64,000 nt of DNA. Origin: Candidatus Bathyarchaeota archaeon. GTDB lineage: Archaea; Thermoproteota; Bathyarchaeia; Bathyarchaeales; Bathycorpusculaceae. The notes beneath the pieces were generated by a model, which saw only the letters and a list, made by a program, of their open reading frames with translations, was not told where the DNA came from and made no database searches. The position numbers and the translations under genes are program-made. Below are positions 46,996 through 63,988 of the stretch, in pieces. The stretch spans positions 1 to 64,000 of the forward strand of contig JANXDU010000031.1 in the NCBI GenBank assembly GCA_025059195.1, given 5' to 3'. The first letter of the stretch is position 1. Each line of letters opens with the position of its first letter.

Positions 46996-49038
46996 TTATT
47001 TTTTGGCTTTTCTCCGCAACAGCGTTACTGCAACAATGATGATGACGATAACGATTACAGCTGCCAACGCATATAGATGATATGGCGGGCTTGGCGGCGT
47101 TAAAACTTGTATTAGTATTTCGCGTTGGTAAGCTGCTGTAGTTGGGCGACTTGCGTCATAAGTAATTCCCCAATTGTCCGCGACCCTTAGCCTTACCGTC
47201 CAGTTTCCAGGGGTTTCAAACTTATAGGTTGCGGTGACCCCTGTCTTCCTATCTCTGTATCTCTCTACTCCCTCTCCCGCCCTTTTCCTTTCCCACGTGT
47301 AGGTGCTTATAATGCCACTGGGGTGGTTGCTTCCTGTTGCGTCTAGGGTTACTTCTTCGTTTGCGTATATCGTTTCTGGCCTGTAGGTGATTAGAAGAAC
47401 TGGTGGGGCTACTATTTTCATTCGGTAAGATGCAAAGTTGTCTTCTGGGTACTTGTCGTATGCTGGTGTAACTTTTATTGTAACATTTAAGTCATCCACT
47501 AAATTTGATGTGAAATTAAACTCAAATGTTTTTGTGCGAAATCTCATTATTGTTTCATTAGCCCATTTCTGTGTTTTCCATAGGGTACCATTTGACAAGA
47601 ACACTTGGAGAGTTGCATCAAACAGCTCATCATAGGTGCCAACGGCTTTAACTGTGAAAAAGACTTTCACAGTTTCTCCAAGGATCGCTGGCAACTCGAA
47701 TTCTTGGCCTGCTACGTATGCTACTCTTTTTACGCTGAGAATTTTTATGTCATGGAATGGTTCTAATAAAAGTTCTAATGGGTCGCTTATTTTTTCATTG
47801 TTCGTGGTGCTGTGTTCATGCGGAACCGTTGTTGTGTTAGCTAAAATTTTATAGTACGCATTTTCGCGTGGTAGGAGGCTCGTGTTCCAATGAAAGACCA
47901 CCGACATTGATTGGCCAGGCTCCACTGTTACATTTTTTCCTCCAATATACTTCCAGCCACCTTTATCCGTTGAATTGTAGTAAGTTGTCACCGTGATGTT
48001 TTCCTTTGCTTCCCCATCGTTTCTTACAGTTACATTAAACATTAAAATGTCTCCCCAAACTAGTCTCGGCGTTAAGAAGGTTATGAAAAGTAATGCTACA
48101 TCTCTCTTGTTAACAACTGTTATTTTCTTGGCTTCCGTCCAACTGCTAGTTCTTCCAGAGTCGTCTTTCACTTGTAACTTTGCATAATACACTCCCACTT
48201 TTTTGTACTTGTAATACGCGATTGGAGAGCTCAGCCAATCTGTGACGTTGCCATCTCCAAAATCCCATTTAAATCCAACAACTGACCTGCCATATGGCCC
48301 CGGCCGACTTTCTGACGCATTGAAAACTGCTGTTTTGTTCACTACTATGTAGCCGTCAGTTGGCCATACAGTAAAACTAGGTTTGGGGCTTCCTGCAACT
48401 TCAAAAAGAGCACCCCTGTAGGAGTAGACTATGCGGTTAGCTTGATTGTCCGCGAGTTTTGCAGGCTGCTGAGGTGTGGACCCTGGATCCACAGGAACTA
48501 ATTCCACCAATGTTGATCCTTCTGTCTTAACTCTGAACTTCAAAATGACAATGTTGTTGGATCGTCCTGGGTTGTTAAATGGAGGCCCTCCTTGTGAGCT
48601 GTATGCAATCCTACAGGTTCCCTCAGCGTTGTTTAAAACATCTCTAACCTTCAATACTGGTTCGTGTAGCACCCCATTCGGGTATGTTTCAACGGGAACT
48701 GTTACTGTGCGGTTTATGCATTCGAGTATTTGTGGATCCCACTTTACTTTTAAGTCAAATCCGTAGAGGTTGCCAATGGGACGTTGGACCGTTGGGTATT
48801 GTGGATCTGGAATCCAGTTGTTGGTAAGGTTGAATATCTTTATGCTAAATGTTATTTCGTCTCCCACGTTTGCCACAATTTTCTCTGGGTCGATATACAA
48901 AAATGGTAAAACCGTCGGAAATCCCGAATCTGTTGCATTTGAAATGTCGAACGGCTCTATGGTAAACAAGCTGATCAACAATAGCATCACAACCAAATAA
49001 GTAGCTGTTCTGGAAGCTTTTTCCATCTCCTCCACCAT
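46996..49038 (-). CDS. membrane-anchored cohesin-like/PKD surface protein
   Basis: In this 680-aa protein a signal helix covers about 13-35. A cohesin-like domain (about 45-215) contains NLYGFDLKVKWDPQIL, VPVETYPNGVLHEPVLKVRD and AEGTCRIAYSS. A PKD domain follows (220-312, GFKWDFGDGN), then CARDB-like beta domains (313-540), a second PKD-like domain (545-650, ATYKFETPGNWTVRLRVAD), and a C-terminal helix (655-675) with a basic tail. Cohesin domains bind dockerins in cellulosomes and in Archaeoglobus. This protein would anchor dockerin partners to the membrane. It is preceded by a duplicated promoter. Confidence 0.75.
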   Translation of the reverse strand: MVEEMEKASRTATYLVVMLLLISLFTIEPFDISNATDSGFPTVLPFLYIDPEKIVANVGDEITFSIKIFNLTNNWIPDPQYPTVQRPIGNLYGFDLKVKWDPQILECINRTVTVPVETYPNGVLHEPVLKVRDVLNNAEGTCRIAYSSQGGPPFNNPGRSNNIVILKFRVKTEGSTLVELVPVDPGSTPQQPAKLADNQANRIVYSYRGALFEVAGSPKPSFTVWPTDGYIVVNKTAVFNASESRPGPYGRSVVGFKWDFGDGNVTDWLSSPIAYYKYKKVGVYYAKLQVKDDSGRTSSWTEAKKITVVNKRDVALLFITFLTPRLVWGDILMFNVTVRNDGEAKENITVTTYYNSTDKGGWKYIGGKNVTVEPGQSMSVVFHWNTSLLPRENAYYKILANTTTVPHEHSTTNNEKISDPLELLLEPFHDIKILSVKRVAYVAGQEFELPAILGETVKVFFTVKAVGTYDELFDATLQVFLSNGTLWKTQKWANETIMRFRTKTFEFNFTSNLVDDLNVTIKVTPAYDKYPEDNFASYRMKIVAPPVLLITYRPETIYANEEVTLDATGSNHPSGIISTYTWERKRAGEGVERYRDRKTGVTATYKFETPGNWTVRLRVADNWGITYDASRPTTAAYQREILIQVLTPPSPPYHLYALAAVIVIVIIIVAVTLLRRKAKK

Positions 49039-49065
49039 TTTGGGAAACTTTATCCCTAATACTTA

Positions 49066-49119
49066 TAAAGCATTTCTTATATACTTTACCGGTAAAGCAT
49101 TTCTTATATACTTTATCGG
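49066..49119 (-). repeat. tandem 27-bp repeat carrying two TATA boxes
   Basis: The unit starting TAAAGCATTTCTTATATAC occurs at 49066-49092 and 49093-49119 with one mismatch. On the minus strand each copy holds GGTAAAGTATATAAG or GATAAAGTATATAAG, a BRE-like/TATA pair. The copy near the gene lies about 40-47 nt before ATG 49038. This is a recent duplication that gives the membrane cohesin-like gene two promoters 27 bp apart. Confidence 0.75.
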
Positions 49120-49149
49120 CTTGCTAACGGATGATAAAAAGAGGGGCTT

Positions 49150-50652
49150 TTAAAGTCTTCTTTTGCTTAGTTTGAAAGCTGAAACGATGGCCAGTCCTAG
49201 GAAAAGCATTGTGATGAACATCATCGTTGTCGAGAATTCCGGTATTACATGTGAGCTTATGATTGTTATTTGACGGGTGCTTTGGAAATTGTATGTGAAG
49301 TATATGTAGGTGTTTGTTGAATCTTCGGTTATTCTGGGTGTCACCTGCTGGCCGTCCACCATTACTATCCACGTTCCCCACATAAGCATCTTTGGAATAG
49401 TCACGTTGCAATAGCCTTTAAATCCTGATAACCCGGTTGCGTTGAAACGTATCATTTCGTGAGAGATTAAATACCGGTAATCTATTGGTGAAATGGTGGA
49501 GTTGCTTTGGGTTACGATCTGTGTTTGCAAGCTATCCACTATTATCGGGTGAACTTTTCTATGGATTATGGTGAGCGTGCCGTTCTCTACTTGGTGGGGG
49601 ATCGGCACGGACCATGGTTTTCCGCTCCACGGTGGCTCTGGGCGCTCCGGATGTGGAAATGAAGCAAGTTTACTCATGACTATCTTAAACATTGTTTCGG
49701 AAATTGGAGCTGTTGCGTTTATACCAATGGTAAACAGAACTCCCGTTCCCTCCGGTGTAGGCCGCTGATCTGGTGGTAATATCTGGCTGTAGGCAAGACG
49801 AACGTATCCCTCTGCGTTGTTTATTACTTTCATGACTTCAAATGTCATGTTGAAGCGTTCCAAGAATGGGCCCACAGAAACCGTTGTGACCTTTATAAAC
49901 CTTGTGTCATAGGCTATTTTCACGTCAAGACCAGAGAGATCCCAGTATGGATGTAGATTGATTATGCTTAGGTTTAATTTGGCAGTGGTGGGAATTTCTC
50001 CAGCATGTTGATAGAGCTTTGGAACTATTCTCAGCGTCGGTTTTTCTGGGTATGGGAACGGTATTCCATGCATTATGAAGGTTCCCTTCACTCTTACATG
50101 GGGTATTGGCTTGGCCTTTGTGTCTGAAAGCTTCACCTCGATGAAGTCGAAGAAGAATGTTACGTCGCCCTGCCAATCCCACTGCTGGTATTTTATTTCA
50201 AAGGTCATAGTGAAGAATGTTCCACTACCGTTGAATGCGGGTGCAGGAGCTAATGCTGAATAGGCCACATGATATGTTCCAGCGGTAGCATTCACTAAAT
50301 CTTTCACTTTTATTGGGTCTCCAGCGGTTCCAGTGTGGAGAATACCTCCGTACGGGGATGGGGGTTGCGGAGCCGGATAGCTCTCAACGGGCACCGTCAC
50401 CTTCCTGCTAATGTATTTCAGGAATGTTGTGTTCCACTTGAACTTAATGTCGAAGCCGAAGAGGTCCCGAATATTTTCAGCTACGACCGCCACGGTTATT
50501 CTCTGACCGGTAACGTTTTCTGGTCCCTTTTCAATGAGTGTCGGTAAAACTTTAACAACCGTTTCAGGTTCTTGGGCAGACGTGTATAGAGGTACTTGTA
50601 CAAGGACTAGAATTAAAGCTACCACCATTATGCCGCTGTATTTTTTCATCAC
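49150..50652 (-). CDS. secreted cohesin-like protein with PEF-CTERM-like tail
   Basis: In this 500-aa protein a signal peptide (1-27, ending TSAQ) is followed by a cohesin-like domain (30-205) with DLFGFDIKFKWNTTFL, VPVESYPAP and AGTYHVAYSALAP. A second related domain (210-380) has DLSGLDVKIAYDT and AEGYVRLAYSQI. A beta-rich region of about 85 aa comes next. The tail reads VIPEFS, a helix, then KLSKRR, which resembles PEF-CTERM sorting signals handled by archaeosortases. It is a close paralogue of the gene at 53823-55724. Confidence 0.72.
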   Translation of the reverse strand: MMKKYSGIMVVALILVLVQVPLYTSAQEPETVVKVLPTLIEKGPENVTGQRITVAVVAENIRDLFGFDIKFKWNTTFLKYISRKVTVPVESYPAPQPPSPYGGILHTGTAGDPIKVKDLVNATAGTYHVAYSALAPAPAFNGSGTFFTMTFEIKYQQWDWQGDVTFFFDFIEVKLSDTKAKPIPHVRVKGTFIMHGIPFPYPEKPTLRIVPKLYQHAGEIPTTAKLNLSIINLHPYWDLSGLDVKIAYDTRFIKVTTVSVGPFLERFNMTFEVMKVINNAEGYVRLAYSQILPPDQRPTPEGTGVLFTIGINATAPISETMFKIVMSKLASFPHPERPEPPWSGKPWSVPIPHQVENGTLTIIHRKVHPIIVDSLQTQIVTQSNSTISPIDYRYLISHEMIRFNATGLSGFKGYCNVTIPKMLMWGTWIVMVDGQQVTPRITEDSTNTYIYFTYNFQSTRQITIISSHVIPEFSTTMMFITMLFLGLAIVSAFKLSKRRL

Positions 50653-50768
50653 CCAACAACACCGCCTACTGGTTATGCTATGTTACGTATTTGAATTTTA
50701 CTGTAATAAAATACACTGTTCCGCTGAGTTTAAGAATAAATAACCAAAGAAAAGGTTGTTACAGAGTT

Positions 50769-52637
50769 TTAATATGAAAAGTTGTACATTGCAGCTATGG
50801 AAACAACGTCAAATATGTCGATGAGCCCAAATGGAAATGCAACGTCTGCCTCTGGGTTCCAATTTGGGTCTCCGGGGCGGGAGTCGTAGGCTGCTGTGGC
50901 TGCCGCGATGTCGAATATGTCAATTATACGGTCGCCATTAATGTCTCCCAACATCTTAATAAAGACATAGCCATCTACATATACGTTATTTATAATGTTG
51001 ATTTCGAATGGAACCCGCGATGCTTCCGCCTTTATCGTAACATTTGCCCCGTATGGCAAACCCGAAGTGTTCCAGTAAAATGTTATGTTTAGCCCCTGTT
51101 TTGCAGCCAAATTATAAACAGTTTTAGTTTCTATTGCGATATCGTTGTAGTGTAGGGTGACGTTGAATGTTTCCATGAGATCTCCGAGATTGAAAACCTC
51201 TACAGTGATTTCCACGATTTTTCCGGAATAGACTTTATTATTGAGTATTCTAATGGATTTAACAGCTACATCTCTTATTACTGTGGCAAAGAATCCATCT
51301 TCAACCTCATGGGCTATTAGTTTTCCACCTCTGTCAACGATTCTCGTGTCAAAAAGGTCTAAGTCTGTGACTCCATAACTTTTTATTTGAAAGGTAATTA
51401 TCGCAACAGACTTCGGAAGAAGTATAGTTGCGGGTTCGGCTGGCGGATGAAAGGTAAAGTTAATTTTGACTCTTCCTATCATGTTGTTGATGATTATTAC
51501 CGGGATGAAGTTTGTTTCGTTGTTTGGCGGAAGTATTGCCACTCCCAAACAGTTCACGATATTCTTGTTGTATCCCAGCGTAAGTTCGTAGCTATAAAAG
51601 TCGATAACATTCTGCATTCTAATCTCAAAATTAACAAAGTCGCCTGGTTTAAGCGCAGGGTTTATGTATTCTTTCGGATAAACAAAAATTTTTGCAGTCA
51701 ACATGTTGTTGAAGTAGCCATCTTTAGGTTCATTGAATGGTATTGGGTCGTTCCAATCGTCCATCAATTTTACGCCGTATAAATCGATGATGCTTTCACC
51801 AATTTTCACTACATGAAAATCTATCGTCGCCAACACGATGTCGCCCGTAAACGGCGGGGCCGCTGGCAGAAGCCATGCTGCTGCTTTCAGCTTTCCCTCT
51901 CCCTCATTTAAGATTATTTCTGATTGGGTGGGGGGGAACGTTGAGTTTATCTTCACTCCCTTTATGTCTAGTATTGTAGTGTTGTAGGCAAGCCAGAACT
52001 CAAACTTGTTCAGATATTTGACGTTTTCAAGTTTAACGTTGACTGTGAAGTGTTCACATGGCGTTAATTCAGGGCTAACTATGCGACTCGGTGTGACGTA
52101 TATCTCAGCCGGTGAAGGTATATAATTCTTAAAGTATCCATTCTGCACAGTATGCCGTATGGGCATTGCGTTGTTGTCTGACAACTTTGAAGAGTAAATT
52201 TCCAATAAACATTTCCCCTGTCCCCTAACTGTAAAAGTGATTTCAAAAACTATTCCGCTACCCCGGAACGGCGATGCCGGAGACATGGACGCGTAGGCCA
52301 CATGGTATGTTCCGGCGTTCTGGTCCACTGTATCTTTAACTCTCATGATGGGCTCGTGAAGTATGCCGTCTGGATAGTTTTCTACTGGTATCTTGACGAC
52401 GCGTCTAACGTAGCCTAAAATGCTGGGATCCCATCGCAACTTTATGTCTAAACCATAGAGGTTGACAACGTTTTCCACTTTGACCTTTATGACAAAGTTG
52501 CTGCCCGGCGGCAAATTAATTGTTGAAGGTTCCACGCGCACTACTGTTTCCTCGGCAGAAGACCAAACGGTGCTTAGTGGAATAGCGCTTACAAGCATGG
52601 CGAGGATTAAGGCTGTAGCTGTTTTTCTTTTAAACAA
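50769..52637 (-). CDS. adaptor-type protein: three cohesin-like domains, CARDB and dockerin
   Basis: Of about 622 aa, the first 30 form a signal peptide. Three cohesin-like domains follow, opening near residues 32, 175 and 315 (NLYGLDIKLRWDPSIL; YLNKFEFWLAYNTTIL; DFYSYELTLGYNKNIV). A CARDB-like domain spans about 460-560. A dockerin-like module ends the protein (GDINGDRIIDIFD and LIDIFDVVSIAAMY, about 563-620). Carrying both partners suggests a chain-forming adaptor. I place the start at TTG 52637: AAGGAGG lies 9 nt before it, and the longer frame would include the TATA box. Confidence 0.75.
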   Translation of the reverse strand: MFKRKTATALILAMLVSAIPLSTVWSSAEETVVRVEPSTINLPPGSNFVIKVKVENVVNLYGLDIKLRWDPSILGYVRRVVKIPVENYPDGILHEPIMRVKDTVDQNAGTYHVAYASMSPASPFRGSGIVFEITFTVRGQGKCLLEIYSSKLSDNNAMPIRHTVQNGYFKNYIPSPAEIYVTPSRIVSPELTPCEHFTVNVKLENVKYLNKFEFWLAYNTTILDIKGVKINSTFPPTQSEIILNEGEGKLKAAAWLLPAAPPFTGDIVLATIDFHVVKIGESIIDLYGVKLMDDWNDPIPFNEPKDGYFNNMLTAKIFVYPKEYINPALKPGDFVNFEIRMQNVIDFYSYELTLGYNKNIVNCLGVAILPPNNETNFIPVIIINNMIGRVKINFTFHPPAEPATILLPKSVAIITFQIKSYGVTDLDLFDTRIVDRGGKLIAHEVEDGFFATVIRDVAVKSIRILNNKVYSGKIVEITVEVFNLGDLMETFNVTLHYNDIAIETKTVYNLAAKQGLNITFYWNTSGLPYGANVTIKAEASRVPFEINIINNVYVDGYVFIKMLGDINGDRIIDIFDIAAATAAYDSRPGDPNWNPEADVAFPFGLIDIFDVVSIAAMYNFSY

Positions 52638-52658
52638 GCCTCCCTTCCTCCTTCTTGA

Positions 52659-52671
52659 TTTATATATATAG
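52659..52671 (-). promoter_or_regulatory. TATA box of the adaptor cohesin/dockerin gene
   Basis: The minus strand reads CTATATATATAAA about 25-30 nt before TTG 52637. It lies within the open reading frame if that is read from 52676, which argues that the first 13 codons of that longer frame are not translated. Confidence 0.55.
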
Positions 52672-52722
52672 AGCAAGGGAAAACTAATTAATATTTCGGG
52701 ATTTTCGATGAATCAGTACACA

Positions 52723-53727
52723 TTAATAGCTTTTATCATATTGGGATGTAACTTTGGTAACGTCGAAGATGTCGATTTTTCCGCTAAGTATTACGTCTGC
52801 CTGCGGGTTCCAGTAGGGGCTGCCACTTTCCGATTCATAGGCGGCTGTTATGGTAACAACGTCAAATATATCTATTCGCCGATCATATACAACGTCGCCT
52901 GACAGTTGAAGTGGCATAGCGAATCCTCCAGCTCCTATTGCCGTTATGCCGCTGTAGAAGGCGCAGACTCGAATTTCATAATTGCCGATGGGCTCTAAAG
53001 GATTCAATCGAAAAGCCGCGTGATAAGAGCATCCGCCTATGTCGGGTATCGGTGTTGGTGTAATTAATTTTACAATGTTGAAACTGGTGTAGCGTTCTGG
53101 ACAGTATGGCTTTCCCAGCATGTGTAGCCAGTCGCTCCAAACACACGCGTAAGCCGTCGCTTCGCCGGCTGAAACCCATGAATCAATGTAAACATCGGTT
53201 AGAAAGCTGACGACTCCCATTGCTGGAATGGTTGTGGAGAGGGCTGCAATATCTATCATCGTATAGTCAAAATCGTATACCGTGATTATTATCAGAATTT
53301 CTCTTTGATAATGCACGTTGTTTTTTACCGTTACGTTAAGATAGGCCATTCCAGGTTTTCTAAAAGTGTTTTTGGGCTTTCCATGCATATCACAGGAATA
53401 GAAAGAAACTATTTCAACTTCCCATGTTGCTTTAGGGGTTTGCTTTGCAGGAACCGTTCTTGCAAATATTATTTTTCCCTCTGGATTCTTTATCTGTATG
53501 GCCACGAGACCTTCGTTGACTGGGTTGTTGTTGTATGTTAAGTTTCCATAAACGTGAACGACATCTCTGTATAGATAGTAGGGTTTGTCCGTTGTAACGT
53601 TAACACTTAGTTGCGGCAGCGCATTTGCTTTTATGTTGAAAAGCGTGGTTAGTAAAAGCAATGCTGAAGTAACCAGTGCTAACGCCTTTTTTGTTGGTAT
53701 GGGTCCTTTTAGCAGAATCTTGTCCAA
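52723..53727 (-). CDS. secreted dockerin-bearing protein, unknown middle domain
   Basis: In the protein of about 334 aa, a signal peptide (1-36, ALALVTSALLLLTTLF) is followed by a beta-rich domain (40-150: LSVNVTTDKPYYLYRDVVHVYG, like bacterial MG2/Ig-type). A second domain of about 120 aa has paired Cys (YACVWSD, YCPERY, IGGCSYH). The end is a complete two-repeat dockerin (GDVVYDRRIDIFDVV, ADVILSGKIDIFDVTKV). No enzyme motif is seen. TTG 53727 has GAGGGGG six nt upstream; TTG 53754 is the longer alternative. It would dock to one of the neighbouring cohesin-like proteins. Confidence 0.72.
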   Translation of the reverse strand: MDKILLKGPIPTKKALALVTSALLLLTTLFNIKANALPQLSVNVTTDKPYYLYRDVVHVYGNLTYNNNPVNEGLVAIQIKNPEGKIIFARTVPAKQTPKATWEVEIVSFYSCDMHGKPKNTFRKPGMAYLNVTVKNNVHYQREILIIITVYDFDYTMIDIAALSTTIPAMGVVSFLTDVYIDSWVSAGEATAYACVWSDWLHMLGKPYCPERYTSFNIVKLITPTPIPDIGGCSYHAAFRLNPLEPIGNYEIRVCAFYSGITAIGAGGFAMPLQLSGDVVYDRRIDIFDVVTITAAYESESGSPYWNPQADVILSGKIDIFDVTKVTSQYDKSY

Positions 53728-53822
53728 ATAGTTCCCCCTCAAATATTCCACCAACCATTTAGTTATTAAAGGGTTATTTCCTTTTTGGTTTAGACTGAAA
53801 AATAAAAAGGGGGTTTGGGCTA

Positions 53823-55724
53823 TTATGCCCTAAGGATGCCAAATGTTGCACTAACTTCTGGACAGTAGGCTGTTCCACCTTGAGATGGCAACTTTGTTAG
53901 AGCGTTTGCGTAAACCGTGCCCATTCCGACAAACGCCCACTTTTTCAGCTCCATGCAGCCAATTTCCACGGTGTATGTGCCTTTCGTTACACCTTTAACT
54001 GGTACGTAGTTGTACGCTATTGTTACGCCGAGGTCGTCGTAGACAACCACCCAGAAGACCACGTCGAGGGGTTGCTCCGATATGCATTTGTAGGTTATCT
54101 TGAACGTCATGTGTTCTCCTTTCTTGAAGGCTGGTGCTCCCGGCTCCACGCTGAGGATTTTGATTAAATAGCCTACTTCAAAGGTGAGCGTGTCAAACAC
54201 GTATTTTTCGGCAATTTCCACCGTGGCGTTAACATACCAAGTTCCGAAGACTCTAGCCTCTGGATTTTCGCATGGCCATGGTAATCTGAAGGATATGGTG
54301 GCGATTCCGTTTTCATTTGTTCTTGCTGTTCTTATGTAGTGGAATTCTCCGTGCCATATCTCAAAGGTGACCAGTTTCTGTTGCACTGGATCAAAATTGT
54401 ATGTTACTAACGCGTATAGGGTTACCTCCGATTGAGGACCGAAGGCGTCGCTTGGTTCCCTGGGGCCTTGTCCACCGTAGGGTTCCGGATATTCTGTGTA
54501 AACATCTATAAATCTGCCCGGTGGTTTGAAGGGTGCTTTGTATGTGGCTGTGGAAACCACATGTGGTATTGCAGGTGACCATGGCAGTCCATCCCATGGG
54601 TGATACGGCCTCTCCGGATGCGGGAACCCAGCAATTTTCACTAGGAAGAAGGCTGCGTTCCAAGGCCATTCAGGCTTAGGTGTTGGCCTTTTGTCCAGCG
54701 GGTTCAGCAAAGTGAAGGTGAATGTTGGCGGCGGATATACTTCAGACTCGTATATGACTTTGAATTTAATGGTTGCTAATTTGATTGTGCCATAAGGCGC
54801 TGTATGGGCGCCGCCTGTTCCCGGTAATCCAAGGAAGACTAAGCGGACGTATCCTCCAGTGTTGTTTATAAGGTTTGAGACTATGTATATGCCGTCTGGC
54901 CAGAAGCTGGCAAACCTTCCTTCAGGGTCTATTACAGATGTTACAGCGTTTACTAATGTTTTATTAAAGTTTAAGTACATGTCAAAGCCTTGTATGTCCC
55001 AGAATGAGTCAAGTGCTCTACCGTCAGCTCCCAGCAAGTATATATCAACGTTAAATTCTTCGTTTAAGGAATCTGCAACGTAAGTTTTTCCTTCAGGTGT
55101 TCTGATGTCGAGGAGTGGCAGTGGCGGGTATTCAAACCTTCTTCCATGCATTAGAAATGTTCCCTTTACTTTCTCGTGAGATATTGGCCTAGCTGCAGAA
55201 TCTGAAAGCTTCACGTCAATAAAGTCGAAGAAGAATGTTATGTCCCCTTCATAATCCCACTGCTGGTATTTGATCATAAAGGTCATAGTGAAGAATGTTC
55301 CATTACCGTTAAACGCTGAAGCTGGTGCTAATGTTGATTTGGCAAGGTGATAGGTTCCAGCAATGGTGTCCACGGTGTCTTTCACAGTTATTGGGGGTCC
55401 ACTAGGTCCTGTGTGGAGGACACCTCCATATGGGGATGGAGGCTGCGGGGCTGGGTAATCCTCAACGGGCACCGTCACCTTCCTGCTGACATAGTCCAAG
55501 AATGTTGTGTCCCACTTGAACTTGATATCAAAACCCCAGAGGTCCCGAACGTTTTCAACCACAACGGCCACGGTCACCGTCTGGCCGATGACGTTTTCCG
55601 GGCCTTTCTCGATGAACGTCGGTATAACCTTAACAACAGTTCTTGCTTGGGCGGAGGCTGGAGCGAGCGTCGCCAGGATACTTACTAACAGGATTGAGAT
55701 CAATAGCGAACAAAGATTCTTCAT
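53823..55724 (-). CDS. secreted two-cohesin-like protein
   Basis: In this 633-aa protein a signal peptide (1-26, ASAQA) is followed by a cohesin-like domain (28-205: DLWGFDIKFKWDTTFL, VPVEDYPAP, AGTYHLAKSTL) nearly matching the paralogue at 49150-50652. A second domain (210-400: DIQGFDMYLNFNKTLV, GGYVRLVFLGLPG) comes next, then Ig-like domains (VTLYALVTYNFDP, MTFKITYKC). There is no membrane tail, dockerin or sorting signal, so it may be free or held by partners. AGGAGG precedes the ATG; a TATA-like ACTTAAAAT lies near 55768-55779. Confidence 0.72.
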   Translation of the reverse strand: MKNLCSLLISILLVSILATLAPASAQARTVVKVIPTFIEKGPENVIGQTVTVAVVVENVRDLWGFDIKFKWDTTFLDYVSRKVTVPVEDYPAPQPPSPYGGVLHTGPSGPPITVKDTVDTIAGTYHLAKSTLAPASAFNGNGTFFTMTFMIKYQQWDYEGDITFFFDFIDVKLSDSAARPISHEKVKGTFLMHGRRFEYPPLPLLDIRTPEGKTYVADSLNEEFNVDIYLLGADGRALDSFWDIQGFDMYLNFNKTLVNAVTSVIDPEGRFASFWPDGIYIVSNLINNTGGYVRLVFLGLPGTGGAHTAPYGTIKLATIKFKVIYESEVYPPPTFTFTLLNPLDKRPTPKPEWPWNAAFFLVKIAGFPHPERPYHPWDGLPWSPAIPHVVSTATYKAPFKPPGRFIDVYTEYPEPYGGQGPREPSDAFGPQSEVTLYALVTYNFDPVQQKLVTFEIWHGEFHYIRTARTNENGIATISFRLPWPCENPEARVFGTWYVNATVEIAEKYVFDTLTFEVGYLIKILSVEPGAPAFKKGEHMTFKITYKCISEQPLDVVFWVVVYDDLGVTIAYNYVPVKGVTKGTYTVEIGCMELKKWAFVGMGTVYANALTKLPSQGGTAYCPEVSATFGILRA

Positions 55725-55885
55725 TTATTTTTCCTCCTTTCTCCGCGATTTATTTTGTAACGCCTGCATTTTAAGTTTTCTGGAATTTTCCTCTATTACT
55801 TAGGGTATAGAAGAAATTTCAGAAAACTTTAAATCTTGATTGCCAGTTCTATTTAATCGGAAAACTCTGAAAGGGAGAAAGGGAA

Positions 55886-58231
55886 ATGAAGTCCAAAATT
55901 TCGTGGTTAGCTTTACTGTTGGCTTCAATTATGGTTCTATGTTTGGCTTCAGCTTTCATATGCGAAGAACCAGCCTATGCGCAGACAGTTCAATATGGCC
56001 CCCGATCTGATTATCAGCTATTCTATTATGCGGATGAGAGCTTGTTGTATTCTGCTCTGGTTGCCGGTGAAATCGACTCAATGATGTGGGAGCTTTCACG
56101 TGCCCAGTATGAAGACGCTATCAAACGGCCTGAGCTCATATTGGTCCCCGTTGCTAGGCTTGACATGCGGGCATGGAGCCTGAACAACAACTACACGATA
56201 GGTGAGTATCCTGGAGTTAGGAACCCGCTGCATGATTTGAACTTCCGTACAGCCCTATTCCACCTAACAGATGTATACTACTACACCGAGGTGGTTTGTG
56301 GTGGCTTTGCTACGGCGCTCCATGTTCCGGTAGCCGGGCCTTCTTCTGGCTGGTGGAACATGTCTGTGGTTAACTGGGCGAAGGCGAACCTTGACTTCAG
56401 CCTCTCTAAGGCTAGGGCTGCCCTTGCTGCCGGAGGGTTTGTCGACAGAGATGGAAACGGCATAATTAACTATCCAATCGGCTGGGATGGGGCTGCAGAT
56501 GGACGCGATCTAGACCCGATTGTAGTATGTAGAAGGGTTGACGACGCCCTTAGAAAGGGTGCTATGGACCACTTAATAGCGCAAATGCAAGCCGTTGGAA
56601 TTCCAATTAAGATATACGACTTCGCGTCTGCTGCAGCTGCAAACCAGCGGGTCATGATTGACCGCAACTATCACATCTACGCTGCCGGCTGGAGCGTTGG
56701 AAGATACCCAACATACCTCTACGGCTGGTTCCACTCCAGCAGGTGGTTCCCAGGCGGAAGCAACTATCACACTGGAGTGGACAAGTTCGGCAACCCCAAC
56801 TATCCGGATGTGGATGCAGAAGTTGACAAAGTATGGTATCCACCAGACATTCCATCTGCCATGGTTGCAGCCAAAAACGCCCAATACCTAGTAGTTCAGA
56901 AGTACAGGATTTTCATAGCGTTATGGTCCTCTCAATCATATTACGCTTACCGCAACCTATTGGGCATGACCATGGAACAGGGAGCAGGCCCAGAATACAC
57001 CAATCCATACATTCCAATAAACGCTAAAAGAGTGGATGACCCGACAAAGCCAATTAGGGTGGGCATAAAGAACCCGCCAGTCGCGCTGAACCACATTACA
57101 TCAAGGTGGGTTTGGGATGTTTCAACATTCCGCTTCATGGACAGCTTCATGGACCTAGCCCCCTACAACATAATGGTCGAAGTTCCATGGAGCGCCCAAG
57201 ACTGGCACATCGCAACATGGGTTGACCCAGAAGACGGCAAAACAAAGTCAAAGGTGACCTACTGGATCAGGCCAGGCCAAGAATGGATTGAACCGGTAAC
57301 CGGCAACGTTCTGAAGGAAAGGGATGCCACGGATCATCCGTTTAGCTGCTGGTACCACGACGCCTGCCCAGCAGGCTGGATATACACGGGCTTCAGAGAC
57401 ATCAAATACATAATTGTAGAAGGAAGATGGAAGATTGACATCTACTTCGACGTCTACAGTTACTGGGCCTTCCTATGGCCATTTGGCAGAGACATGTACC
57501 CGCCAGCATGGAAACGATCTCCACTAGCAACTCTCGAAACAAAATTATTTGTTGAAGGAGTCAACATGACAACGCCAGGCGAACTCGCCACTCCAACCAG
57601 AACCATAGGGACACCCGTAGAAGTTGTGGAGATAAAAGCGTTGTTCCCCAATGGCACCGAGAAAACACTCGTCCCGGACACAACCCCATACTTGACGACG
57701 CACACCGGCCACTACGTGCTTAGAGGCAGCACAGCTAGAGGACCAAAAATAATGATCTTCACAGACCTCCCAGACGGCACGAAACTGACAGCTAAATACT
57801 GGGCTAGAGGCGATTATGAAGGCTTCACCCCCGGAGGCCTTCCATGGAGGGAAATCCTCATAGGCTCTGGACCCCACTACCTAGTAGACCTTAACCCCAC
57901 CCTCGGAGGGTGGGCAACCTTCAAGGCAAACCGCAAACACTGGATGGAAACACCGCCAGATGGCGAAGTAGACTTCTGGTACTACTTCATTGAAGGACCC
58001 AAACCACGCGACGGCTACTACATGGTCGACATCTTCGACGTAGTCAAAATCTGCGCAGCATATGACGCCACTGGCAACGGCGCACCCGGAGGCAGACCGC
58101 CAAGCGCAAACTGGGACTCAGGTGCTGATCTGGCGGAGCCCGCAGGCCTAATCGACATCTTCGACGTGGTTTCAGCGACTGTAAACTACGAAAAGATTTT
58201 TGGAAGTCCTCCGCCTAATCCGCCTCCATAA
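55886..58231 (+). CDS. family 5 ABC substrate-binding protein with C-terminal dockerin
   Basis: In this 781-aa protein a signal peptide (about 1-32, ending AYAQ) is followed by a family 5 extracellular binding domain (35-700: FYYADESLLYSALVAGEIDSMMWE, PVARLDMRAWSLNNN, DLNFRTALFHLTD, AGPSSGWW). A dockerin-like module follows (about 705-770: VDIFDVVKICAAYDA, LIDIFDVVSATVNYE), then a Pro-rich end. No clear lipobox and no C-terminal helix are seen, so docking may replace the usual anchor. The Asp pattern of the first loop is degenerate. GGGAGAAAGGG precedes the ATG. Confidence 0.85.
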   Translation: MKSKISWLALLLASIMVLCLASAFICEEPAYAQTVQYGPRSDYQLFYYADESLLYSALVAGEIDSMMWELSRAQYEDAIKRPELILVPVARLDMRAWSLNNNYTIGEYPGVRNPLHDLNFRTALFHLTDVYYYTEVVCGGFATALHVPVAGPSSGWWNMSVVNWAKANLDFSLSKARAALAAGGFVDRDGNGIINYPIGWDGAADGRDLDPIVVCRRVDDALRKGAMDHLIAQMQAVGIPIKIYDFASAAAANQRVMIDRNYHIYAAGWSVGRYPTYLYGWFHSSRWFPGGSNYHTGVDKFGNPNYPDVDAEVDKVWYPPDIPSAMVAAKNAQYLVVQKYRIFIALWSSQSYYAYRNLLGMTMEQGAGPEYTNPYIPINAKRVDDPTKPIRVGIKNPPVALNHITSRWVWDVSTFRFMDSFMDLAPYNIMVEVPWSAQDWHIATWVDPEDGKTKSKVTYWIRPGQEWIEPVTGNVLKERDATDHPFSCWYHDACPAGWIYTGFRDIKYIIVEGRWKIDIYFDVYSYWAFLWPFGRDMYPPAWKRSPLATLETKLFVEGVNMTTPGELATPTRTIGTPVEVVEIKALFPNGTEKTLVPDTTPYLTTHTGHYVLRGSTARGPKIMIFTDLPDGTKLTAKYWARGDYEGFTPGGLPWREILIGSGPHYLVDLNPTLGGWATFKANRKHWMETPPDGEVDFWYYFIEGPKPRDGYYMVDIFDVVKICAAYDATGNGAPGGRPPSANWDSGADLAEPAGLIDIFDVVSATVNYEKIFGSPPPNPPP

Positions 58232-58285
58232 ACCCCGCATATTCCACCCTTTTTTATGGCCCTTCCTCTAAATGTTATCAAACTA

Positions 58286-58297
58286 AACCTTAAATAT
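58286..58297 (+). promoter_or_regulatory. TATA-like promoter of the permease operon
   Basis: AACCTTAAATAT lies 41-52 nt before ATG 58338. The same core, CTTAAATA, recurs before the cohesin-like gene at 60980 (60950-60961) and before the ATPase gene at 62019 (61960-61970). The cluster therefore seems to have several promoters of one type instead of a single long transcript. Confidence 0.5.
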
Positions 58298-58337
58298 CCC
58301 TAGAATTACTTCTGGTAATGGGCCGCAGGCTGATAAA

Positions 58338-59330
58338 ATGGGATTGAAAGGATACATCCTCAAGAGAACCATGTATAGCGTAGTTTTAGTCTTCTGTGTG
58401 TTAACCGTTAACTTTATAATTTTCAATCTCATGCCCGGTGATCCCATAGCTCAGTACATTCTTAGCCCCGAGTCACGCTTGACACCAGAAGATGTAGAAA
58501 CGCTGAGAAAAATTTACGGCATCGACCTCCCTTACCATGAAAGATACTTCGTATACCTTAGAAACATGTTGACTTTCAACCTTGGCAAGACCCAGGTGAC
58601 TCGGGTACCAGTAGTTGAGGAAATATCAAAAAGGTTGGGCAACACAGTCTTATTAATGACCACAGCAATTGTAACATCGATAACTCTAGGCACATTGATA
58701 GGGACATTCGCCGCATACAAAAGAGCGACGAAAACGGACACGGCAATAGTGACCAGCTCCTTGATCCTTGGAAGTCTGCCAGTATTCTGGATTGGAATCC
58801 TTATGCTTTTCATTTTTGCAGTCTACCTTAAATGGTTCCCGTTTGGAGGCTCGGTTCCCAAATGGTGGGCTTACACTCCGCCAACCAGCCCTCTTGAAAT
58901 CATAGCTGGGCGACTTTACTGTGTAACTTTGCCAGCCCTTACTCTCGTGATTTTTTCAGTTGACAACTGGACATTATTAACAAGGGCATGTGTGCTTCAA
59001 ACCATCACGGAAGACTACGTTGTCACCGCAAGGGCAAAAGGGCTACCTGAAAGAAGGGTTCTTCTAAAACATGTTTTGAAACCAGCATCTCTGCCCCTTG
59101 TCACAGCCATGGCTTTAAGCTTCGCCGGGATATTTACGGGCGCAATGATAACTGAGACAGTGTTCAGCTATGAAGGAATGGGCCACTGGATCTATATGGC
59201 CATTATGGAGAAAAACCTCCCGGTAATGTATGCGGTATTCTACATTTCTGGGTTACTTGTAGTAATAGCCAATTTTATAGTTGACCTAGTATACGGAATG
59301 ATTGATCCACGTATAAAAGTTGGGAGATAA
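58338..59330 (+). CDS. ABC transporter permease, DppB/OppB type
   Basis: The 330-aa protein has six helices. It carries family marks: NFIIFNLMPGDPIAQY near residue 24, RKIYGIDLPYHERYF, and the EAA loop for ATPase contact, EDYVVTARAKGLPERRVLLKHVLKPASLPLV. It forms the channel of a peptide/oligosaccharide importer together with the next gene, which starts 4 nt after its stop. It follows the dockerin-bearing binding protein by 106 nt. Confidence 0.94.
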   Translation: MGLKGYILKRTMYSVVLVFCVLTVNFIIFNLMPGDPIAQYILSPESRLTPEDVETLRKIYGIDLPYHERYFVYLRNMLTFNLGKTQVTRVPVVEEISKRLGNTVLLMTTAIVTSITLGTLIGTFAAYKRATKTDTAIVTSSLILGSLPVFWIGILMLFIFAVYLKWFPFGGSVPKWWAYTPPTSPLEIIAGRLYCVTLPALTLVIFSVDNWTLLTRACVLQTITEDYVVTARAKGLPERRVLLKHVLKPASLPLVTAMALSFAGIFTGAMITETVFSYEGMGHWIYMAIMEKNLPVMYAVFYISGLLVVIANFIVDLVYGMIDPRIKVGR

Positions 59331-59334
59331 AACC

Positions 59335-60939
59335 ATGGCTGAACGCAGAGTTAAAACGTCGACATTAGCGGCGGGACTTAAGGGGTTCTGGTTCCAATTC
59401 AGAAAAAGTAAAAGAGGCATGGCTGGCCTATTCATTCTCTGCATACATGTCATAGTGGCCCTCATGGCGCCGTTCATAGCGCCAAACGACCCAATAAGAC
59501 CGACTTGGCCAGGCTATTTCCCAGCAGGTGAAGCCCCCTTAGCCTTTATGATGTGTGTCCCATCATGGTACAAATATTTGGGTAGGGAGGTTTCCGAAAA
59601 CATGGAAGTAATCGACGGCTATACATTTGCCTCTGAACAAGCCCTACAAAAATGGAACGTTGCAATCAGTCAGCCGACCCGTGTAAGCCTCTCATACAAC
59701 CCAACCGGGGGAACCCTAAATGACGGATGCATAGAAATAACCTATAGCCGTCAAGCCAATGAAGCAGCGGGAACAAGCAGCATACGTCTAAGCTACCGCT
59801 TCACGTATCCCTACAAGGCGCATCCTCAGCGTTTTTGGATACACGCTTCCTATCTGATTAACGGAACCGTGTCCCCTTCCACTAGTGTACATGTATCCTT
59901 CTCCTTCTTTAGAGAAGACGCAGAACCTTTGGCAAACTACACCTATCGCGGGCCAACCTACCAAAAGGATTCATTATTGGTATATGAGTATCCCCTAATC
60001 ACTTATGACTTCTACTCCCCAGTAAGCCCTTGGAGGCATATGTGGACAAGGTCAACTAAAAGAGAAATCTTTGAAAAACCATGGTGGTACAGAGCCCCGG
60101 AGGCCAAAATTTTCCCGACAAGCGGAAACTACACATTCACAGTTGACGTAACCTTTAATGATCAAGGAGGAGCCCGGACGCAGCAGGTAAAAGTTTACCT
60201 TGACAATCTTCAAGTACTGTTATATGGCAACGCGTATGGACTACTAGGAACAGACGCTGATCCAGCAGCCCCTAGGGACCTTTTCTCTTCGTTAATATAC
60301 GGTTCAAGGGTGTCAATTTTCGTTGGGCTCCTCGTCGCGTTGATTTCAGTCACCATAGGGCTGACAATAGGTTTAACTGCAGGATACATCGGCGGAGTAG
60401 TTGACGAGGGGTTGATGAGATTCGCCGACCTTTTAATGGTTCTGCCTACACTGCCACTGTTAATAGTTTTAGCATACATACTTTCCCCATCAATATGGAA
60501 CATTGTGATGGTCCTATCATTTCTAGGCTGGATGGGTTTTTCCAGAAACATACGATCCGTAACGCTTTCTCTACGTGAAAGATCCTTTGTAGAAGCCGCA
60601 AAAGTTGTAGGTGCGGGAAGATTTTACATAATACGCAAACACATCTTTCCAAACGTAGTTCCGTTGGTGTATTTGGCGCTATCTCTATCCGTTCCAGGAG
60701 CTATAATTTCAGAAGCCTCCCTGAGCTTTCTGGGACTATTTGACCCGAATGTGATGTCCTGGGGAAGAATGATTAACGAATTCAACGGTTCCGGAGTTGC
60801 TGTGACAAAGGGATTCAGCGATTACTGGTTCTGGGTGATACCTCCAGGAATAGCCATCTCATCGTTGGCGATATCCTTTATCCTAATAGGATACGCGTTG
60901 GACGAAATACTAAACCCGAAACTTAGAATGCGACGTTAA
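59335..60939 (+). CDS. ABC transporter permease, DppC/OppC type, with large external insertion
   Basis: The protein has about 534 aa; DppC proteins are usually near 300. After helix 1 (GLFILCIHVIVALMAPFIAP) the short outside loop is expanded by about 220 residues (75-295) of beta-rich, Thr/Tyr/Ser-rich sequence (CIEITYSRQAN, RLSYRFTYPY, YTFTVDVTFNDQGG, VKVYLDNLQVLLYG). The normal DppC resumes at LLGTDADPAAPRDLFSSLIYGSRVS, with the EAA loop RSFVEAAKVVGAGRFYIIRKHIFP. The insert would sit outside, near the binding protein. ATG 59335 has GGGAG upstream. Confidence 0.92.
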   Translation: MAERRVKTSTLAAGLKGFWFQFRKSKRGMAGLFILCIHVIVALMAPFIAPNDPIRPTWPGYFPAGEAPLAFMMCVPSWYKYLGREVSENMEVIDGYTFASEQALQKWNVAISQPTRVSLSYNPTGGTLNDGCIEITYSRQANEAAGTSSIRLSYRFTYPYKAHPQRFWIHASYLINGTVSPSTSVHVSFSFFREDAEPLANYTYRGPTYQKDSLLVYEYPLITYDFYSPVSPWRHMWTRSTKREIFEKPWWYRAPEAKIFPTSGNYTFTVDVTFNDQGGARTQQVKVYLDNLQVLLYGNAYGLLGTDADPAAPRDLFSSLIYGSRVSIFVGLLVALISVTIGLTIGLTAGYIGGVVDEGLMRFADLLMVLPTLPLLIVLAYILSPSIWNIVMVLSFLGWMGFSRNIRSVTLSLRERSFVEAAKVVGAGRFYIIRKHIFPNVVPLVYLALSLSVPGAIISEASLSFLGLFDPNVMSWGRMINEFNGSGVAVTKGFSDYWFWVIPPGIAISSLAISFILIGYALDEILNPKLRMRR

Positions 60940-60949
60940 AAGTCAACAA

Positions 60950-60961
60950 AACCTTAAATAC
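60950..60961 (+). promoter_or_regulatory. TATA-like promoter of the small cohesin-like anchor gene
   Basis: AACCTTAAATAC lies about 19-30 nt before ATG 60980 and 37-48 nt before the alternative ATG 60998. It shares its core with the promoters at 58286 and 61960, so the anchor gene can be transcribed independently of the permeases. Confidence 0.5.
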
Positions 60962-60979
60962 TCTCCATTACCTCAATAT

Positions 60980-61903
60980 ATGTTGAGGTTGTTAAGAATG
61001 AGATATCCAGTAGTATTACTGACAGTAATCTCTTTGATGTTTATGCTTACCCTAACGTTGCCCATAACACACGGCTCGGAAGAAAACATAAAGGCTGAAA
61101 TAATCTTCGATAACGTTTTTGGGCTCTACGGTTTCGAGTTGAAAGTGGCGTACGACCCTAACACCTTGGACTTAGTTGCTGTCACTCCACAACTTCCATG
61201 GACCTTTTATCACATAGTCAAAAATGAGTTAGACGAACAAAAAGGAGTTTACCGTCTCGTTGCCGTTGCATTGCCACCAAGTTCACCATACAGCGGAACA
61301 ACCAAAGTAGCTGAATTGGTCTTCCTGCCTTTCGCCGGTGCTGCCGACATCCACATTGCCGAAGCAAAACTTGTAGATAAAAATGGAAACAGCATACCCT
61401 TCAAAGTGGACGGCCTTATCCTTCGGGGTATCCCCGTCCATGATGTAGCTGCTAAAAAAGTTTTAGCCTGTCCAAGAAGCGCTTATCAAGGCGACCCGAT
61501 AACCGTTAGTGTTGAGGTAGAAAATCAAGGAGATTTTGAGGAAACATTTGATGTGGCCGTTTACGCCGATCAAGATGGAAGTGTCATAGGCGATGAAATC
61601 GTTGTTGGGGAAAAAACTGTTAGTATGCTACCTAAATCGACTATGTGGTTAACCTTCATTTGGGACACCACATGGGCACCATACGGTGGGTATTACATCA
61701 GCGTGAAACTCAGCATTGTTTCAGGAGAAAATGACGTGTCAGATAACTTCCTTGATAAAGCAGACTATGTAGGCGGAATATACCCCAGACCCCACGTTAG
61801 ACGAAATGCAGAGATTTTAGCTCAAGTCTTTTTGACGAGCATTTTGGGTTTAGCAATCTTTGCCGGAGCGTTCTGTGTGAAGAACTACTGGTTTAGCTGC
61901 TAA
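60980..61903 (+). CDS. small membrane-anchored cohesin-like protein in the ABC gene set
   Basis: In this 307-aa protein a signal helix (9-31, VVLLTVISLMFMLTLTLP) is followed by a cohesin-like domain (35-150: GLYGFELKVAYDPNTLDLV, KGVYRLVAVALPPSSPYSG, GNSIPFKVDG). A CARDB-like domain covers 152-265 (YQGDPITVSVEVENQGDFEETF, DNFLDKADYV). A C-terminal helix comes last (280-300, ILAQVFLTSILGLAIFAGAF). It lies between permease and ATPase genes on the same strand. A cohesin held in the membrane here is well placed to dock the dockerin-tailed binding protein (inference). ATG 60998 is an alternative start. Confidence 0.75.
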   Translation: MLRLLRMRYPVVLLTVISLMFMLTLTLPITHGSEENIKAEIIFDNVFGLYGFELKVAYDPNTLDLVAVTPQLPWTFYHIVKNELDEQKGVYRLVAVALPPSSPYSGTTKVAELVFLPFAGAADIHIAEAKLVDKNGNSIPFKVDGLILRGIPVHDVAAKKVLACPRSAYQGDPITVSVEVENQGDFEETFDVAVYADQDGSVIGDEIVVGEKTVSMLPKSTMWLTFIWDTTWAPYGGYYISVKLSIVSGENDVSDNFLDKADYVGGIYPRPHVRRNAEILAQVFLTSILGLAIFAGAFCVKNYWFSC

Positions 61904-62990: not shown

Positions 62991-62998
62991 GGGATACG

Positions 62999-63988
62999 AT
63001 GACAGAAACCATTTTAAAAGTTGAAAAACTGAAAAAATGGTTCCCCATAACTCGTGGATTGCTGAGAAGCCTGTTTTCGAGACGTGAACTATATGTTCGA
63101 GCGGTCGATGAAATAGACTTTGAAATTAAGGAACGTGAAATCTTTGGACTTGTAGGGGAAAGCGGCAGCGGAAAAACAACCACTGGAAGAATGCTTGTCC
63201 GACTCATTGAGCCTACATCTGGAAAAATTCTTTACCGTGGAAAGGATATAGTGTCTATGTCTGATGAAGAGTTTAAACCTTTAAGAAAAAAACTACAAAT
63301 GATCTTCCAAGATCCCTATGAATCTCTTAACCCAAAAATGACTGTTTTTGATATCCTAGCTGAACCTTTAAGGGTGCAAAATGTTGCGCATGGAGATGAG
63401 ATCTACGAAAGGGTTTGCAAAATTTTAGAGGATGTTGAGTTGACGCCGCCCCAAGAGTTTCTACAGCGTTATCCCCACGAATTAAGCGGAGGGCAAAGGC
63501 AACGTGTGGCCACTGGAAGAGCGCTTATCCTCAACCCAGAGTTTATAGTTGCCGACGAACCTGTATCCATGCTTGACGTTTCAATAAGAGCGGAAGTACT
63601 AAACCTAATGTTGCAGTTAAGTGAAACCCATGGAATAGCCTTCTTGTATATCACGCATGACTTGGCTTTAGCGCGCCATTTATGCGATACAATTGCTGTT
63701 ATGTACCTTGGAAAGATAATGGAATTGGCATCTGCAGATAGCCTTATAAAAGAACCGTTACATCCGTACACAAAGGCGTTACTTGCCGCTGTCCCAGTGC
63801 CTGACCCGACTTCTAAGCGGGCAGAAGTTACGATAAAGGGAGAAATTCCAAGTCCGGTTAACCCGCCATCTGGCTGCAGGTTTCACACGAGATGTCCACA
63901 GTTCATTGGAGAAATCTGTAAAAAGGAGACACCTTCATTAGTAGAGATTGGTTCTCACCATTACGTTGCTTGTCACTTGTACCGTTAA
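62999..63988 (+). CDS. ABC transporter ATPase, DppF/OppF type
   Basis: The 329-aa protein has Walker A GESGSGKTT, Q-loop IFQDPYESLNPKM, signature LSGGQRQRVA, Walker B FIVADEPVSMLD and the switch His in YITHDL. The Cys-containing C-terminal motif reads CRFHTRCPQFIGEIC. It pairs with the previous ATPase. I use ATG 62999, which is 8 nt after the dppD stop and has GGGGAT upstream; the open frame to 62870 lies inside dppD. The operon ends 12 nt before the window edge. Confidence 0.95.
   Translation: MTETILKVEKLKKWFPITRGLLRSLFSRRELYVRAVDEIDFEIKEREIFGLVGESGSGKTTTGRMLVRLIEPTSGKILYRGKDIVSMSDEEFKPLRKKLQMIFQDPYESLNPKMTVFDILAEPLRVQNVAHGDEIYERVCKILEDVELTPPQEFLQRYPHELSGGQRQRVATGRALILNPEFIVADEPVSMLDVSIRAEVLNLMLQLSETHGIAFLYITHDLALARHLCDTIAVMYLGKIMELASADSLIKEPLHPYTKALLAAVPVPDPTSKRAEVTIKGEIPSPVNPPSGCRFHTRCPQFIGEICKKETPSLVEIGSHHYVACHLYR

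Follow-up and report, generated by a model that had tools for sequence, protein, structure and literature searches.

Cohesin and dockerin domains around an ABC importer in Bathyarchaeota and their possible role in tethering its binding protein

The role of cohesin and dockerin domains outside cellulosomes has been called unknown (PMC5244752, citing a 2009 survey). Archaeal, non-cellulosomal examples occur in Archaeoglobus fulgidus, for which binding has been shown by others (cited in PMC9012536). In ANME archaea, according to that paper, dockerins are found on NikA/OppA-type and TroA-type solute-binding proteins (SBPs), and scaffoldin-like proteins contain up to five cohesins; the abundance of such proteins in ANME is also described in PMC5244752. 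For the specificity of these modules, the Cel48 dockerin of B. cellulosolvens is informative: its specificity is determined by positions 10 and 11, binding is lost when Met17/50 (position 10) or Phe27/60 (position 20) is mutated, and Met21 (position 14) contacts the cohesin, the binding face of which is formed by strands 8-3-6-5 (PMC8063739; positions 10, 14 and 20 are our own conversion from its residue numbering). A circularly permuted binding protein of cluster B is also known, and its authors proposed a link with tethering (PMC4990184).

Here, we analyzed a window of 64 kb (the whole stretch of DNA under study) from a 156-kb contig (C33) of a Candidatus Bathyarchaeota archaeon, whose genome (1.37 Mb) is 92% complete. 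The first-pass annotation had placed an Opp/Dpp importer among genes for cohesin- and dockerin-bearing proteins, and this arrangement was borne out. Each cluster gene is an open frame exactly where it had been placed, with its motifs in position, and the parts of an Opp/Dpp/Nik importer are all present: SBP_bac_5 and two BPD_transp_1 permeases by Pfam, and two ATPases by sequence. The oppABCDF set is flanked or interrupted by g1-g5, which lie on the minus strand (46996-55724), and by g9, which lies on the plus strand (60980-61903) between oppC and oppD. The g5 and SBP genes are divergent and separated by a 161 bp gap. The features are as follows.

46996-49038, minus strand: g1, membrane-anchored cohesin protein with signal peptide, one cohesin (about 48388-48906), PKD, CARDB-like and PKD domains and a C-terminal transmembrane segment
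49150-50652, minus strand: g2, membrane-anchored cohesin protein with cohesins at 50065-50562 and 49537-50040 and a PEF motif followed by a C-terminal transmembrane segment
50769-52676, minus strand: g3, scaffoldin with cohesins at 52095-52547, 51681-52103 and 51261-51692, a CARDB-like domain and a C-terminal dockerin at 50772-50957 (code DIFD/DIFD)
52723-53754, minus strand: g4, secreted protein with a C-terminal dockerin at 52726-52908 (code DIFD/DIFD)
53823-55724, minus strand: g5, cohesins at 55140-55640 and about 54711-55085, no C-terminal transmembrane segment
55886-58231, plus strand: SBP, OppA-like, with signal peptide and a circularly permuted SBP_bac_5 fold (residues 39-370 then 387-522), no transmembrane anchor
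57989-58201, plus strand: C-terminal dockerin of the SBP (code DIFD/DIFD), first calcium loop degenerate
58338-59330, plus strand: OppB-type permease (Pfam BPD_transp_1, 9.7e-34)
59320-60939, plus strand: OppC-type permease (Pfam BPD_transp_1, 8e-26) with a big extracellular insert between TM1 and TM2
59563-60252, plus strand: the OppC insert, with a predicted beta-sandwich fold similar to carbohydrate-binding modules, without Pfam family
60980-61903, plus strand: g9, one cohesin (61064-61450), a CARDB-like domain and a C-terminal transmembrane segment
62019-62990, plus strand: OppD-type ATPase, assigned by sequence motifs in the translation
62996-63988, plus strand: OppF-type ATPase, assigned by sequence motifs in the translation, with the start taken at the ATG of MTETILK

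Just beyond the end of the window (L012, 6236-10099), a surface protein of 984 aa is encoded that has PKD and InlB-type repeats. It is followed by a membrane-anchored protein of 283 aa, which has no confident family and in which a GCHS motif is possibly cysteine-protease-like.

The domains of the cluster are true cohesins and dockerins, whose closest solved structures are of type II. The core motif reported for the cohesins was located in g1, g2, g3, g5 and g9, which together contain nine cohesins. The Pfam Cohesin family (PF00963) was found above its cut-off in g3 (three copies, E 8.5e-24) and g5 (7.6e-7); g9 fell just short (23.1 bits against a cut-off of 24.1) and g1 and g2 gave no match. 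A hidden Markov model seeded only with the Pfam-positive cohesins recovered g3, g5, g2, g1 and g9 with E-values from 1e-124 to 1e-13, the best match among 750 shuffled proteins being 0.06. On the dockerin side, the C-termini of g3, g4 and the SBP each contain two copies of IDIFD or VDIFD, and the alignment reveals two duplicated F-hand-like repeats of ∼22 residues each. Pfam Dockerin_1 (PF00404) scored g4 at 12.5 bits and missed g3 and the SBP, so that none of the three window dockerins passed the cut-off; three of the four dockerins on another contig of the genome, C28, did so. A model seeded with only the three dockerins of the C28 cluster detected g3 and g4 (both at E 1e-10) and, only marginally, the SBP (0.02), against 0.64 for the best of 750 shuffled proteins. 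The assignment of the SBP dockerin is secured by its 49% identity to the g3 dockerin and by conservation of the dockerin-bearing tail in ten full-length homologs. Thus, the Pfam check that had been proposed succeeded for the cohesins of g3 and g5 and failed for g1, g2, narrowly for g9, and for all three dockerins. Pfam as the sole test was set aside, since it misses g1, g2 and every window dockerin, in favor of held-out profiles with shuffled controls. The profile of the local cohesins matched the solved type II cohesin 3l8q (E 6e-15) and that of the dockerins the solved dockerin 2y3n_B (E 7e-8). The original count of five cohesin genes and three dockerin-ending proteins was confirmed. The C-terminus of g2 and that of a protein on C28 (L013, 4383-5051) each have PEF, then a transmembrane segment and then basic residues, an order reminiscent of PEF-CTERM sorting signals; an NCBIfam search of these tails found no sorting-signal match.

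The SBP itself departs from the canonical fold order. When it is aligned with normal SBPs, residues 39-370 correspond to their C-terminal part and residues 387-522 to their N-terminal part, and the halves are swapped against the solved protein 4pfu as well. The predicted model (pLDDT 72) matched chitooligosaccharide-, nickel- and peptide-binding proteins over ∼335 residues, as expected when a permuted fold is aligned sequentially. This SBP and its relatives are naturally permuted (circularly) versions of the binding-protein fold of family 5. A second unusual feature, the extracellular insert of OppC (200-300 residues), was present in nearly all homologs, including each of the 12 that were aligned. 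Its sequence had no match in Pfam or PDB, and the lead came from the predicted fold only: the AF2 model (pLDDT 77) is a beta-sandwich for which Foldseek returned CBM27 and CBM16 (E about 1e-5 to 1e-4, TM 0.4-0.6), so that carbohydrate-binding modules are its closest predicted structural relatives.

Such an insert, together with an architecture of anchored cohesins (g1, g2 and g9), a three-cohesin scaffoldin (g3) and dockerin-bearing cargo, as in cellulosomes, would suit a degradative complex in which hydrolases (peptidases or glycosidases) are collected by the scaffold and their products are imported. We consider this very unlikely on the basis of what the dockerins are attached to. Profile searches of the genome found 16 cohesins and 7 dockerins, each of which lies in this cluster or on contig C28, and none of the seven dockerins was borne by a glycoside hydrolase or protease. 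Four dockerins have the I-F/Y type of code (those of the SBP, g3, g4 and one cohesin protein on C28), and no enzyme was found among these four proteins in the 92%-complete genome. The earlier suggestion that enzymes may dock from elsewhere was thus not upheld. Pfam detected no catalytic domain within the cluster itself. Among related clusters that had been annotated, dockerins were borne mainly by SBPs, g4-like proteins and scaffoldins, the enzyme scan having covered only some of the large dockerin proteins. Contig C28 harbors a second cohesin/dockerin cluster (L013, 2443-12139), in which three dockerins are of another kind (mostly N-I-L-D) and one has the code of the window locus. One of the three dockerins of the other kind belongs to an unusual secreted amidotransferase-like protein of 974 aa, which combines DUF2341, GATase_4 (Ntn-type), LamG, cohesin, CARDB and dockerin domains.

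To place the SBP dockerin in a wider context, we examined the ends of all SBP_bac_5 (family-5) proteins from 91 genomes of the same family, with transmembrane segments and anchors called by hydropathy. A dockerin without a C-terminal transmembrane segment was found in 37 proteins and the reverse in 17, whereas no protein had both (Fisher 6e-8); nearly all of the remaining 14 start with an apparently uncleaved N-terminal transmembrane segment. In addition, a relative of the SBP in Methanomethylicota (L087, 4213-8902), encoded beside OppB/OppC, has a C-terminal transmembrane segment in place of the dockerin. On the basis of this exclusivity and this relative, the dockerin occupies the position of the membrane anchor. 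Its presence was also accompanied by cohesins: at least two were found in all 22 genomes with a dockerin-SBP vs 2 of the 17 with only transmembrane-anchored SBPs (p=5e-9), and the same trend was observed at the level of genera (14 of 14 vs 2 of 10; p=6e-5).

It is therefore probable, in our opinion, that the dockerin replaces the membrane anchor and gathers the receptors of the importer on a cohesin scaffold, as an anchored array beside the permease. According to this model, the SBP of an oligopeptide- or oligosaccharide-type ABC importer would be held at the surface by its dockerin, without a membrane anchor of its own. The proteins with a C-terminal transmembrane segment (g1, g2 and g9) would serve as anchored cohesin sockets, the three cohesins and single dockerin of g3 would make it an adaptor scaffoldin able to multiply docking sites, and g5 would offer two further free cohesins. 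The dockerin of g3 itself may engage either the transmembrane cohesins or further g3 molecules, one code being common to all dockerins of the locus. The SBP and g4 would be the docked cargo, bound through their dockerins to the cohesins of the transmembrane proteins and of g3 and g5, and loaded binding proteins may thereby be densely arrayed, and exchangeable, near the permease. The data establish the identities of the domains, the order of the genes, the inventory of the genome, the exclusivity of the anchors, the co-occurrence with cohesins and the concordance of the code; from these we infer the binding, the stoichiometry and the cohesin-dockerin pairing in such an array, as well as its benefit for transport and its substrate. 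A cell-surface assembly had been proposed for this locus before, and the comparative data suggest one that involves the binding protein of the importer.

Another possibility is that the dockerin is an anchor only, which keeps the SBP one-to-one on a transmembrane cohesin, with g3 and g5 having an unrelated surface role (S-layer or adhesion). The strict exclusivity of dockerin and transmembrane segment would fit this view, and single-cohesin proteins with a C-terminal transmembrane segment are numerous. What makes us regard this alternative as rather unlikely is the composition of related clusters. SBP-dockerin and cohesin genes were clustered in 10 genera, and the homology-found named relatives were for the most part Bathyarchaeota metagenome-assembled genomes. 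The recurrent neighbors, in varying combinations, were the SBP-dockerin, OppB/OppC, a g5-like two-cohesin protein, a g4-like dockerin protein, a g3-like scaffoldin and a small cohesin-transmembrane protein. Relatives of g3, with three cohesins and a dockerin, were present in most related clusters, and those encoded beside dockerin-SBPs carried the same dockerin code. Orthologs of g4 adjoin those of g5, which is itself conserved in related clusters, and a g1 ortholog lies next to the SBP in one locus (L031). The distribution of the locus is patchy, since the SBP of the window is missing from three genomes of the same genus.

The code to which these clusters conform was examined with a set of 108 dockerins taken from related loci, in which the residues of the first repeat at positions 10 and 11 agreed with those of the second (0.66 vs 0.18 when shuffled). 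In 21 loci, SBP dockerins could be compared with those of other proteins from the same locus, and the match at these positions was 0.734 vs 0.216 in permuted data, with a maximum of 0.486 in 10,000 permutations. All dockerins of the window locus have one common code, I-F, and A-K, G-K, M-K, M-S, V-L and L-F/Y were observed in other loci. Column by column, the dockerins of a locus agreed well at positions 10, 11, 14, 17, 18 and 20, as well as at 9 and 13, with concordance close to zero at 15, 16 and 19. Sharing of the code within a locus could partly be due to duplication of dockerin modules, although adjoining non-contact positions differ; common descent would not single out one face of a helix. 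The closest solved match of these dockerins is the crystal chain of the B. cellulosolvens Cel48 dockerin. On the cohesin side, the Ala column of GTYHVAY covaried with the dockerin code at the contig level (familywise p<0.002): Ala occurred mainly with I/L-F/Y codes, Gly with most M-codes and Ser mainly with A-K and V-L. A single cohesin had no match among PDB sequences, so that columns could not be mapped to numbered contact residues and their strand placement rests on homology. At the level of pairs, four cohesin columns had seemed to covary; at the contig level, only one survived correction.

These data also bear on whether the modules are vestigial or generic, that is, whether dockerins simply mark surface proteins that have lost specific pairing. 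Among the calcium ligands at positions 1, 3, 5, 9 and 12, the full set is found only in repeat 1 of g3, and 9 and 12 are kept elsewhere; the first loop of the SBP dockerin is without the standard ligands, and that of g4 is degenerate too. Degenerate loops in the SBP dockerin and low Pfam scores would fit such decay. Nevertheless, locus-specific codes at contact positions, common to both repeats and covarying with cohesins, are hard to reconcile with lost pairing, and we regard it as highly improbable. Instead, the tethering and clustering of receptors proposed above may extend to insulated, locus-specific codes that provide plug-in anchoring for importer receptors, the anchor having been replaced many times, each cluster with its own code and co-evolving cohesin faces, and several importers coexisting in a cell without cross-talk; we see this broader proposal as evenly balanced. 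In one genome (G066, 6% contamination), dockerin-SBPs with the codes DIFD, DMSD and DMKD are encoded on three contigs (L135, L136 and L137). Two of the three have neighbors with the same code and could represent insulated systems.

Compared with known systems, the Bathyarchaeota locus resembles that of ANME (PMC9012536): a dockerin is present on an OppA/NikA-type SBP, and cohesin scaffoldins are encoded in the genome of an archaeon without a cellulosome. Bathyarchaeota are another lineage, and a conserved cluster around one importer, the exclusivity of transmembrane segment and dockerin, the locus code, its covariation with cohesins and the permuted SBP are absent from the parts of the ANME account that were consulted. 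The clostridial and B. cellulosolvens cellulosomes (2y3n, 3l8q) share homologous type II cohesins and dockerins, the logic of scaffoldin plus anchoring, and symmetric dockerin repeats with contact residues at positions 10/11/14/20, whereas the Bathyarchaeota locus has no glycoside hydrolases, its cargo is a transporter receptor, and the first calcium loop is degenerate in the SBP and g4 dockerins. Treponema MglB-2 is likewise an ABC binding protein with a natural circular permutation (PMC4990184), but it is a cluster B sugar protein and the Bathyarchaeota SBP belongs to family 5 (Opp/Dpp). Dockerin-tailed receptors and multi-cohesin scaffoldins are already known from ANME archaea (PMC9012536), and the literature searched contained no account of a dockerin-tailed SBP/scaffoldin system in Bathyarchaeota. 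The conserved cluster, the replacement of the anchor, the permuted receptor and a locus-specific code with which cohesins covary appear to be new.

Tethering and clustering of importer receptors would give non-cellulosomal cohesins and dockerins a specific and testable role. The statistical signature, which comprises anchor exclusivity, co-occurrence and the contact-residue code, predicts both pairs and mutants, and for protein assembly, these loci would be a large natural source of cohesin-dockerin pairs that are candidates for orthogonality.
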